Both the position numbers and the translations under genes were made by a program. Below are positions 16,028-18,276 of a stretch of DNA of 49,069 nucleotides, piece after piece. Source of the stretch: Amycolatopsis thermalba (lineage in GTDB: Bacteria > Actinomycetota > Actinomycetes > Mycobacteriales > Pseudonocardiaceae); NCBI RefSeq assembly GCF_003385215.1, contig NZ_PQHW01000048.1, positions 1 to 49,069 on the forward strand, in the 5' to 3' direction. Position 1 is the first letter of the stretch; each line of letters begins with the position of its first letter. Below the pieces are notes generated by a model. The model made no database searches, was not told the DNA's origin, and worked only from the letters and a program-made list of their open reading frames with translations.

Positions 16028-17227
16028 ATGCCGGAAGACCGCAACCTGCGGCTGATCATGGTGGTGCTCGCGTTCTCGTGCGGCACCACGGTGGCGAACC
16101 TGTACTACGCCCAGCCGCTGCTGGCCGGGATCGCGACCGCGTTCGGCGTGAGCCAGGGCAGTGCCGCGCTGGTGGTGACGCTGACCCAGCTCGGGTACGC
16201 GGCCGGGCTCGCATTGCTGATGCCGCTGGGCGATCTGGTGGAGAACCGGGCGCTGGCCTCGCGGACGCTGGTGTTCACCGCGCTGGCGCTGGTGGTCACG
16301 GCGGTGGCGCCGGTGTTCGGGGTGTTCCTGGCGGCGTCGGTGCTGATCGGGGTGACCTCGGTGGTGGCGCAGATCCTCATCCCGTTCGCCGCGCACCTCG
16401 CGCCTGAGGAGCAGCGCGGCCGGTTCGTCGGCACCGTGATGACCGGGCTGCTGCTGGGGATCCTGCTGGCGCGGACGCTGTCCAGCCTGGTCGCCGGGGC
16501 GTTCGGGTGGCGCACGATCTACTTCGTGTCGGCGGTGCTGATGCTGGTGGTGGCGGTCGCGGTGCGCCGGATGCTGCCGCACCGCCGGCCTTCGCACGAC
16601 GCGGGTTACCGGCGGCTGATGGGTTCGATTCTGACGCTGGCCCGGGAGGAACCGGCGCTGCGGCGGCGGGCGGTGTGCCAGGCGCTGATGTTCGGGGCGT
16701 TCTCGGCGTTCTGGACGTCGGTGGCGTTCGAGCTGGTCGGACGGCACGGGCTGTCCCAGACCGAGGTGGGTGTCTTCGCGCTCGTCGGAGCGGCGGGCGC
16801 GGCGGCCGCACCCCTGGCCGGCCGGCTGGGCGACCGGGGCCACGGCCGGATCGGCAGCGGGGTGGCGCTGGGGCTGGCCGCGGTGGCGATGGTGGTGGCC
16901 TGGCTCGGGGCGGGTTCGCTGGTGGCGCTGGCGCTGGCCGGGGTCGTGCTGGACCTCGCGGTGCAGGGCCACCAGGTGCTGAGCCAGCGGGAGATCTACG
17001 GCCTGCGGGCGGACGCGCGAGCCCGCATCAACACGGTGTTCATGACGACGATCTTCGTGGGCGGCGCGGTGGCATCGGCACTGGCGGGGAGTTTGTACGA
17101 CGCTTTCGGCTGGGCCGGGCCCAGTCTCTTCGGCGCCGTGCTGCCGATGATCGGGCTGGCCATTTGGGCAACAGCAACGACGCGCCAAGCAACACAAGAG
17201 AAGCTGGGTGGTCATCCCGTCGCCTGA
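16028..17227 (+). CDS. MFS transporter, drug/sugar efflux type
   Basis: A 399-residue 12-helix transporter. SCGTTVANLYYAQPLLAGIA in helix 1 and HLAPEEQRGRFVGTVMTGLL in the cytoplasmic region are typical of a broad actinobacterial efflux subfamily (YgaY/YfcJ-like). ATG at 16028 is used; the open frame upstream to 15959 has no support. The last codons (LGGHPVA) and the stop lie inside the left arm of a large inverted repeat, so the C-terminal tail may have been altered by that element. It follows paaR by 76 bp in the same direction, but a role in phenylacetate handling is not shown. Confidence 0.85.
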   Translation: MPEDRNLRLIMVVLAFSCGTTVANLYYAQPLLAGIATAFGVSQGSAALVVTLTQLGYAAGLALLMPLGDLVENRALASRTLVFTALALVVTAVAPVFGVFLAASVLIGVTSVVAQILIPFAAHLAPEEQRGRFVGTVMTGLLLGILLARTLSSLVAGAFGWRTIYFVSAVLMLVVAVAVRRMLPHRRPSHDAGYRRLMGSILTLAREEPALRRRAVCQALMFGAFSAFWTSVAFELVGRHGLSQTEVGVFALVGAAGAAAAPLAGRLGDRGHGRIGSGVALGLAAVAMVVAWLGAGSLVALALAGVVLDLAVQGHQVLSQREIYGLRADARARINTVFMTTIFVGGAVASALAGSLYDAFGWAGPSLFGAVLPMIGLAIWATATTRQATQEKLGGHPVA

Positions 17228-17345
17228 CACCGGAACGATCACCTTGAGCCAGGGCCGCAACCCTCGCTGGGTGGTGAGATGACATGCCAACCTTGCGGCC
17301 CTGGCTCAAGGTGATATGCACAAACCGGAAGGCGACGGGATGACC
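17210..17345. repeat. Nested inverted repeat A (16-bp outer, 23-bp inner arms)
   Basis: Outer arms 17210-17225 and 17330-17345 are perfect complements (16 bp, GGTCATCCCGTCGCCT). Inner arms 17238-17260 and 17293-17315 are perfect complements (23 bp). CCGG at 17230-17233 can pair with 17325-17328 between them. The inner loop is 32 nt. The MFS stop codon sits in the left outer arm. It may act as a terminator, but its size and two-tier design exceed a normal terminator; it could be a dispersed repeat element. Confidence 0.85.
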
Positions 17346-17475
17346 GCCCGGCGACCACCCCGTCAAGGTGAGACGAGGGGCTTTTCCGTCATCCCGGAGC
17401 CTGCCCGTCCGGCGAGGACATCTTTTGATCTTTTCCTGCGCTTCGCGCAGGGTCAAAGGCGCCTACGGCGCCTAA

Positions 17476-17492
17476 CGGTCACCTTGGGTGAC
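17476..17492. terminator. Compact hairpin, 7-bp stem and 3-nt loop
   Basis: GGTCACC-TTG-GGTGACC is a perfect hairpin. It overlaps the left outer arm of the second nested repeat by 4 bp. Nearby, CCTGCGC-TTC-GCGCAGG (within 17430-17455) and AGGCGCC/GGCGCCT (within 17455-17475) are further small hairpins. Confidence 0.45.
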
Positions 17493-17616
17493 CTCCCCCG
17501 CCCCCTCACCTCGAGTGTGTATTGGTCGCCGAGCAGCGGCGTCAAGGCGGGAAAGAGTACCTTGACCCCGCTGATCGGCGACCAAAAGCGGGCTGTGGAT
17601 CGGGGGCGGGGGAGGT
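17489..17616. repeat. Nested inverted repeat B (16-bp outer, 26-bp inner arms)
   Basis: Outer arms 17489-17504 and 17601-17616 are perfect complements (GACCTCCCCCGCCCCC, 16 bp). Inner arms 17521-17546 and 17559-17584 pair at 24 of 26 positions, around a 12-nt loop. The design repeats that of the element at 17210-17345 (16-bp outer arm, inner arm of ~25 bp) but with an unrelated sequence. Confidence 0.85.
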
Positions 17617-17639
17617 CTGGGGCGTAGTCGGTCAACTTG

Positions 17640-17790
17640 CGTTGCCGGGCGGCGGTTTGCTGGGCTGCCGCGCGGGCAGGCGAGTGCCGGGCCACTGCCG
17701 TTGCCGGGCGCCGGTTTGCAGGGCTGCCGCGCGGCCTGTGGCGAGGTCGGTTCCGTTGCGTTGCCGGCCGGCGGTTCGGGTGCGTATCTT
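17640..17790. repeat. Three degenerate ~60-bp tandem repeats
   Basis: GTTGCCGGGCGGCGGTTTGC at 17640 recurs as GTTGCCGGGCGCCGGTTTGC at 17699, and more weakly as GTTGCCGGCCGGCGGTTCGG at 17759, giving a 59-60 bp period. GGGCTGCCGCGCGG follows the motif in the first two copies. Together with the two nested inverted repeats this fills the 640-bp space between the MFS gene and the YbjN-like gene; no coding sequence is credible here. Confidence 0.65.
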
Positions 17791-17868
17791 CCTGGTGCCG
17801 TCCCGTTCCTAGATCATCTGTGCTTCACTTCCCGTGACCATCCGGGCACGAAGAAGGGAACTCCTGGG

Positions 17869-18276
17869 GTGACGACCTGGCGCGATCTCGCGACGTTCAT
17901 CCGGCAGCAGTACAAGGTGATCCGGGACGAACCGGACGAACTGCGCATCCGGGTGCGTTTCCAATCCGATCCCGAGGAGGAAGAGCGCACCCAGATCGTC
18001 GTCATCGCCCGGGAGGTTCTCGATCGGCGGGACGAGTGGATCCAGATCGCGACCCCGTTCGCGCGGGTGGACGAAGTGGACGTGGTCGGGGTCCTCGCCG
18101 AGGTGGGGCACACCACCGTCGTGGGCGGGGTGGTCGTCATGGGCGAGTACCTGGTGCTGCGGCACTCCCTCCCGCTGGCGAACCTCGACATCAACGAGTT
18201 CGTCGACCCGCTCGCGCTGGTCACCAGCTCCGCCGAGCTGCTCGAGGAACAACTCACCGGGCGCGACGACTACTGA
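17869..18276 (+). CDS. YbjN-like (type III chaperone fold) protein, hypothetical
   Basis: A 135-residue acidic soluble protein. The pattern of a short alpha/beta domain ending YLVLRHSLPLANLDINEF, then VDPLALVTSSAELLEEQL, resembles actinobacterial YbjN/CesT-type proteins. The molecular role is unknown. GTG at 17869 is supported by GAAGGGA about 9 nt upstream; the frame is open back to 17701 but that part lies in repeats. It lies 66 bp before rtcB in the same direction. Confidence 0.75.
   Translation: MTTWRDLATFIRQQYKVIRDEPDELRIRVRFQSDPEEEERTQIVVIAREVLDRRDEWIQIATPFARVDEVDVVGVLAEVGHTTVVGGVVVMGEYLVLRHSLPLANLDINEFVDPLALVTSSAELLEEQLTGRDDY

Follow-up and report, generated by a model that had tools for sequence, protein, structure and literature searches.

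A dispersed two-hairpin repeat of Amycolatopsis chromosomes with sequence kinship to a non-coding locus of RepSA-type conjugative elements

Introduction

The closest described counterparts of the locus reported here are the single-strand origins of conjugative elements, the dispersed palindromes of the REP type and the clt loci of Streptomyces. Most single-strand origins are smaller than the element described below, and the unit of REP and REPIN sequences is short, about 20-40 nt. ICEBs1 provides the precedent for an orientation-specific single-strand origin (sso), together with its definition and an orientation test (excerpts of PMC4595007), and pIJ101 also has an sso (excerpts of PMC4170104). 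The known clt has 8-bp TRS repeats (same excerpts), and in Streptomyces Tra is reported to bind clt-like chromosomal regions (PMC3218068 and PMC4170104, both in excerpt).

The DNA analysed here, referred to as the window, is the whole of a 49,069-nt contig (C166) of Amycolatopsis thermalba, whose genome (the own genome) is a 7.24-Mb draft in 222 contigs. Members of the genus make antibiotics such as vancomycin and rifamycin. Handles starting with G, C and L denote genomes, contigs and loci, respectively. In a search of the literature, covering titles and abstracts and a few subscription papers, we found no description of the repeat that this window contains, and the text of the A. orientalis genome paper has no match to 'repeat' or 'palindrom' (PMC4048454).

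Results

Anatomy of the locus

The original prediction, made from the letters of the window, had singled out two large nested hairpins, A and B, and its account of their arms proved accurate. The outer arms of A form a perfect 16-bp pair, itself nested in a 23-nt pair (17203-17225/17330-17352), and its inner arms are paired at 23/23 positions around a 32-nt loop. In B, the outer arms are paired at 16/16 positions, and the inner arms of 26 nt pair at 92%, with two mismatches and a 12-nt loop (Table 1). Smaller hairpins are present between A and B, and the upstream MFS gene ends inside the element, its stop codon (17225-17227) falling within an outer arm of A, both as predicted; in G003, the MFS gene terminates ahead of the element. 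That account lacked the third occurrence of the arm motif, at 17388-17403, with which S, the most conserved part of the element, opens. The motif GTCATCCCG is common to L, R and S, with R having it in the opposite sense.

Table 1. Features of the two-hairpin locus, in positions of the window
Feature	Position	Strand	Evidence
MFS transporter gene, last codons and stop within the element	16028-17227	+	Pfam MFS_1
L, left outer arm of A, holds GTCATCCCG	17210-17225	+	arm search; 99.5% same-site identity
5' inner arm of A	17238-17260	+	arm search; covariation
3' inner arm of A	17293-17315	+	arm search; covariation
R, right outer arm of A; pairs with L, alternatively with the start of S	17330-17345	+	arm search; covariation
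S, conserved segment GTCATCCCGGAGCCTGCCCGTCCGGCGAGGACAT	17388-17421 (~34 nt)	+	identical in 24/27 own copies located via A
Mini-hairpin within S, GTCC-GGCGA-GGAC	17407-17419	+	T-A pair exchanged or lost as a pair elsewhere
Two small hairpins in the S-to-B interval; number and sequence vary among copies	17435-17472	+	fold; copy comparison
Left outer arm of B	17490-17505	+	arm search
5' inner arm of B	17522-17547	+	arm search
3' inner arm of B	17560-17585	+	arm search
Right outer arm of B	17602-17617	+	arm search
~59-bp direct repeats 3' of B, 3 copies, 64-100% of reference	17629-17794	+	repeat search

When the whole window was scanned for inverted repeats, three of the four A/B arm pairs ranked among the 25 longest of 93. 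Folded as RNA, the 451-nt region reaches -274.6 kcal/mol, its shuffles averaging -191.9 (z = -13.2; 0/100 shuffles as low), and the DNA fold departs from shuffles by z = -11.5 on the + strand and -12.4 on the - strand. The ~59-bp direct repeats share the core GTTGCCGGgCGgCGGTTtgCAGGGCTGCCGCGCGG and vary in number, comparable arrays being found 3' of B in several other copies. A short peptide seen by eye on the reverse strand of S was dropped as a candidate, because even third codon positions are constant.

A composite repeat present in tens of copies

The window hairpins are one copy of a dispersed chromosomal two-hairpin repeat of roughly 410-560 bp. One of the readings originally proposed, a dispersed palindromic element family, is borne out by 34 S matches in the own genome, by 2-42 in 15 of 18 genus relatives and by the covariation described below; the own count of 34 may be off, since contigs of the draft end in the repeat. 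Two patterns were searched in the own genome and these 18 relatives, S (≤2 mismatches) and a short S form (≤1 mismatch). The former matches in G017 (42), G010 (39), G009 (36), G003 and G013 (26 each), G005 (22), G006 (19), G002 (16), G008 (7), G012 and G014 (2 each) and G007 (1), with none in G018, G004, G016, G001, G015 and G011. The latter matches in G016 (22), G006 (21), G014 (17), G018 (7) and G004 and G007 (3 each), with single one-mismatch matches, maybe by chance, in the own genome, G013, G017 and G002 and none in the rest; G001, G011 and G015 have no match by either pattern. A few of the counted S matches are probably chance or conjugative-element copies.

Beyond the genus, a phylum-wide draw searched with S (≤3 mismatches in 30) returned 1 of 396 genomes, the own one; it holds no other matching genus member and therefore gives no measure of within-genus spread. 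Among the matches listed in named genomes, exact S occurs in Amycolatopsis, Prauserella, Saccharomonospora, Qaidamihabitans (taken from the locus list), Actinoplanes and Planosporangium, ten genomes of these other genera having 1-2 S matches each versus 21 in Amycolatopsis sp. 2-2. A phage or plasmid origin of the repeat was rejected, as viral contigs gave no match to the exact S pattern and distant blastn gave none in plasmids or phages.

The original prediction had read A and B as two back-to-back elements, a description that does not hold: A, S and B recur jointly and in constant order as a single composite. The order is always left end, A with its outer and inner arms, linker, S, small hairpins and B, often followed by the ~59-bp direct repeats, and the unit measures ~136 nt for A alone and ~408 nt from A through B in the window. 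Queried with A, the own genome yields 27 good matches, and many weaker reverse-strand ones that arise because A is symmetric. S follows A in nearly every A copy and reads GTCATCCCGGAGCCTGCCCGTCCGGCGAGGACAT in 24 of the 27 own copies located via A, two others carrying one change each and one being shortened. With B as query, 40 places were scored out of 119 first-look candidates. Deleted derivatives are common, among them copies without A and copies of B alone. Given this fixed composite across many copies and species, the probability that the hairpins lie side by side by chance is negligible.

Several copies show particular rearrangements. L040, L044 and L055 of the own genome are B copies without full S, a shortened S remnant being visible beside L040. 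In G007, S breaks at the identical point in both L071 and L087, reading GCCCGCCGGC then CAATACCGCTAAGTT, a genome-specific variant. Three own copies, L003, L010 and L014/L060 (contigs C72, C184 and C199), are interrupted in the B loop after GGCGGGAAAGT, and by eye the inserts resemble insertion-sequence DNA, two alike and one different, as if targeting this loop.

Placement between genes

Multiple copies near gene ends, which had been suggested as a check, were indeed found: of 101 distinct copies with both neighbours called by a purpose-written gene caller, 57 lie in convergent, 36 in tandem and 8 in divergent gaps, versus 28, 108 and 93 among 229 background gaps of at least 60 bp at the same loci (chi-square p = 5e-18, the copies not being independent because same-site copies of different species are included). 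For left genes directed at the element, the median distance from stop codon to S is 222 nt. Of the copies in tandem gaps, 14 share the direction of the neighbouring genes and 22 oppose it. Among the readings originally proposed, a chromosome-organisation site stays a candidate. No replication-strand bias was seen in two genomes, orientation relative to the chromosome halves being 18 versus 25 (p = 0.36) over 22 listed positions of G005 and 21 of G444, with the origin assumed at position 1. The 22 listed copies of G005 sit at 0.81-2.34 and 5.69-7.33 Mb of the 8.18-Mb chromosome, with none in the intervening 3.3 Mb.

Conservation of the fold

As judged from the aligned copies, evolution keeps the fold of the family. 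Compensatory changes, another suggested check, were found: in 28 sequences from four or more genera, covering the A outer stem, the A inner stem and the S mini-hairpin, 21 of 45 pairs are changed on both sides and 95.5% of cells are paired, values that 0 of 500 shuffles reach. Sliding the partners lowers pairing to 32-44%, a comparison that favours the unslid version inasmuch as the structure was drawn from these same sequences. The A inner stem contributes 16 of its 23 pairs changed on both sides. In the S mini-hairpin, most conjugative-element copies have C-G in place of the T-A pair (the Amycolatopsis ones are C-G), and the short form has lost both of its sides. Among the 27 own copies, 25 have T-A, one a shortened loop and one is a duplicate; among 28 copies from other genus members, 17 have T-A, 6 have lost both sides, 1 has C-G, 2 are truncated and 2 are without S. 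This combined tally of 27 and 28 is less biased than an earlier one of 159, which used a fixed regular expression on many loci fetched by exact S.

R may also pair with S in place of L. With this alternative, 93.1% of cells are paired, yet changes on both sides affect no more than 1 of the 13 pairs that make up the two R:S helices; this pairing is possible, without covariation support.

Mispairs bear on which strand folds. Read on the + strand, the A inner stem of 103 copies has G-T in 29 cells versus A-C in 4 (12 versus 4 distinct, p = 0.08), the conjugative-element and other-genus rows have 15 versus 5 distinct, and the pooled count is 27 versus 9 (p = 0.004); elsewhere, the outer stem is near even (3 versus 2) and B is reversed (1 versus 6). 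The G-T excess of the A inner stem is suggestive of folding by the + strand, with a bias that is weak by distinct events and that strand-specific mutation could mimic.

Shared sites and homogenisation

Many sites are common to several species. The flanks of 23 of 32 own copies match a fetched S-bearing locus of another species, with positions inspected for selected pairs only, and of the remaining nine, seven (all except L020 and L182) correspond to a site with L or S in one or more of the genomes examined. Occupancy varies: G010, G013, G017 and G003 have a copy at the window site and G001 and G012 have none, and the L013 site is filled in the own genome and G017 and empty in G010, G013 and G003. 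At the window site, L192 (G010) lacks A, and L195 (G013) lacks the inner arms of A and of B, with most of the rest kept in both; losses of this kind would be expected of unstable palindromes.

Identity at sites that the own genome shares with A. deserti is 99.5-99.8% for L, R and S versus 90% for the left flanks; the value for L is 99.5% over 13 same-site pairs, and retrieval of the A. deserti loci through an exact S match biases that for S. Taken whole, same-site own/A. deserti copies are 84.7% identical (14 pairs, of which L004/L175 is doubtful) versus 83.1% for random pairs (permutation p = 0.07), and mean identity of copies is 84.3% within the own genome and 84.4% within A. deserti. Linkers and S forms track the genome: GAGCCAGCCC... 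occurs in most G009 copies among the matches listed, the short S in G016, G018 and G004, and a change in the form of the S hairpin affects every or almost every copy that a genome has. The copies thus appear to undergo concerted evolution, same-site copies being no more alike than random ones and genome-specific linkers and S forms being the outcome that recombination between copies would give; in view of the p-value of 0.07, the case leans more on the S forms and linkers. G006 is mixed, with 19 long and 21 short S forms. Among the matches listed, the S stem of G013 carries a C-to-G change at 5399989, in the copy that corresponds to the one in the window, and an S copy with GTCC/GGGC is present in G009 at C2:692096. 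Such mixed or broken S copies count against perfect S invariance.

Kinship with a locus of conjugative elements

RepSA/FtsK-type conjugative elements from two actinobacterial orders also bear A and S together, in the orientation of repSA and upstream of it. Among the 12 S regions fetched from other genera, seven have genes of an actinomycete integrative and conjugative element to the right of S; these encode an integrase, RepSA, an FtsK-type transfer protein and, in some regions, a GntR regulator. Pfam confirms RepSA (E = 3e-152 in L241, 7e-114 in L247, 7e-130 in L248 and 2e-150 in the element on contig C135 of the own genome) and likewise FtsK in the examples scanned. No conjugative-element genes were seen near S in L245, L249, L250, L251 and L252, the matches in L251 and L249 being partial or due to chance; L249 (Actinoplanes subtropicus) shows S without recognisable A.

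A search for RepSA within the genus found 22 places. All ten with at least 57% identity to the query were fetched, and eight carry the element (L280 weakly); of the 12 at 40-45% identity, ten were retrieved, all lacking the element. In 14 of 15 element-bearing loci, RepSA is encoded 6-11 kb downstream, on the same strand; it was not seen in L246. Among the conjugative elements listed, none has a gene called immediately ahead of the A+S locus. On the Prauserella elements, shared homology ends sharply ~196 nt before and ~200 nt after S, so that the module there measures ~400 bp; by eye, its 3' half holds another nested hairpin instead of B. On this sequence evidence, the A+S half of the repeat is homologous to a non-coding locus of one RepSA type of actinomycete integrative and conjugative elements, a homology compatible with either direction of movement between chromosome and element.

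When 61 A+S sequences were placed in a tree, 43 of the 44 chromosomal ones fell in one clade (99/97), which makes them a lineage of their own and not fresh escapes; the exception, L076 (G001), groups with the conjugative-element copies. In G010, no RepSA match accompanies the 39 S matches.

Discussion

Our preferred reading, to which we give a probability of roughly 0.45, sees the repeat as an old chromosomal family related to a conjugative-element cis-site that acts when folded as a single strand and may be a single-strand origin; this function is what we infer from the features above. On the conjugative element, the locus would work as a folded single strand, most likely as a single-strand origin or as a replication signal of a related kind that rolling-circle replication exposes. 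From an ancestral copy that entered the Amycolatopsis chromosome, the repeat would have spread to tens of gaps between gene ends; the chromosomal copies would since have been inherited in place, with recombination between them homogenising their sequences. L, R and S would be the parts read by a protein or by priming machinery. Use of the site while single-stranded is proposed because four features fit it: its fold, the preference for one strand, the constant orientation and a RepSA context of the rolling-circle type. The contrast between eight of ten and zero of ten RepSA regions speaks for this reading; against it we count the two regions with RepSA of at least 57% identity that lack the element, the lack of a RepSA match in the copy-rich G010, the weakness of the strand bias and an element size above that of most single-strand origins.

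A serious rival, albeit a somewhat unlikely one, is a selfish, non-autonomous mobile repeat in the manner of REP/BIME, BOX or MITE sequences, moved in trans, perhaps by a RepSA-type HUH initiator, with no host function and merely tolerated in gaps after genes. The variable occupancy of the window and L013 sites, the enrichment in convergent and rarity in divergent gaps and the frequent deleted derivatives all speak for it. It accounts less readily for sites that are old and common to several species, for L, R and S staying near identical while linkers and flanks diverge, and for conjugative-element copies that hold one place and orientation. No terminal inverted repeats were seen, the one filled/empty junction compared (L013 versus L315) shows no target duplication of the MITE kind, the element ends in Amycolatopsis not being sharply defined, and a RAYT-driven REP system was rejected on 0 matches to the transposase profile (Y1_Tnp, PF01797) in the own genome, versus profile matches in 5 of 14 control genomes.

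It is also conceivable, and in our view unlikely, that the chromosome has taken over a replication or transfer signal of the conjugative element as a network of tens of strand-specific folded sites, with L, R and S under selection and co-evolving genome-wide, for example in priming DNA synthesis or in mobilising or protecting chromosomal DNA when single strands are exposed.

We consider it decidedly improbable that the locus is recognised by an FtsK/TraB-type translocase, as a clt on the element and as clt-like sites on the chromosome that let conjugation move chromosomal DNA. The elements carrying A+S do encode an FtsK-family transfer protein, and the binding of Tra to clt-like chromosomal regions sets a parallel. 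The fit is poorer because the short repeat array is absent: no TRS-like 8-bp array was seen in L283, L242 or the window copy, the only repeats being paired ones such as L and S, and clt requires no covarying single-strand fold.

The chances are similarly slim that the element is transcribed and, as a structured RNA or 3'-UTR element, affects termination, regulation or the stability of RNA. Covariation and tolerance of G-T on the + strand would suit an RNA, as would the 54 of 71 left genes on the + strand that stop 190-290 nt before S. However, no promoter-like site and no hairpin with a T-run resembling a terminator was found on either strand at 17150-17870, 0 of 4227 Rfam families reach their gathering score in the window, and the orientation in tandem gaps is more often against the genes than with them. 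L010, L012 and L025 moreover adjoin what by eye resembles a separate terminator, and the locus on the listed conjugative elements has no gene called directly before it.

If the single-strand reading is true, it ties a little-studied non-coding locus of actinomycete conjugative elements to a chromosomal repeat family of an antibiotic-producing genus. The genome-specific S forms with paired base changes would make it testable what reads the sites and how dispersed copies change together. For assemblers and annotators, the element also calls for caution, as several contigs of this draft end inside it.

Among known systems, clt and the clt-like sites of Streptomyces resemble the present case in combining a conjugative-element locus with related chromosomal copies, but clt consists of 8-bp repeats bound by TraB, which are absent here. 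REP/BIME/REPIN, ERIC and BOX sequences are likewise dispersed, palindromic, modular, intergenic and near gene ends, whereas the unit described here is far longer, has a three-part L-R-S motif and kinship to a conjugative-element locus, and has no RAYT gene. The single-strand origins, such as ICEBs1 sso1 and pIJ101 sti, share with it a non-coding nature, a strong single-strand fold, residence on a rolling-circle conjugative element and a fixed orientation to the replication gene, and in them as here structure seems weightier than much of the sequence. The likeness is one without sequence match, and the present element differs in being larger, in its two hairpins and in forming a chromosomal family of tens of copies.
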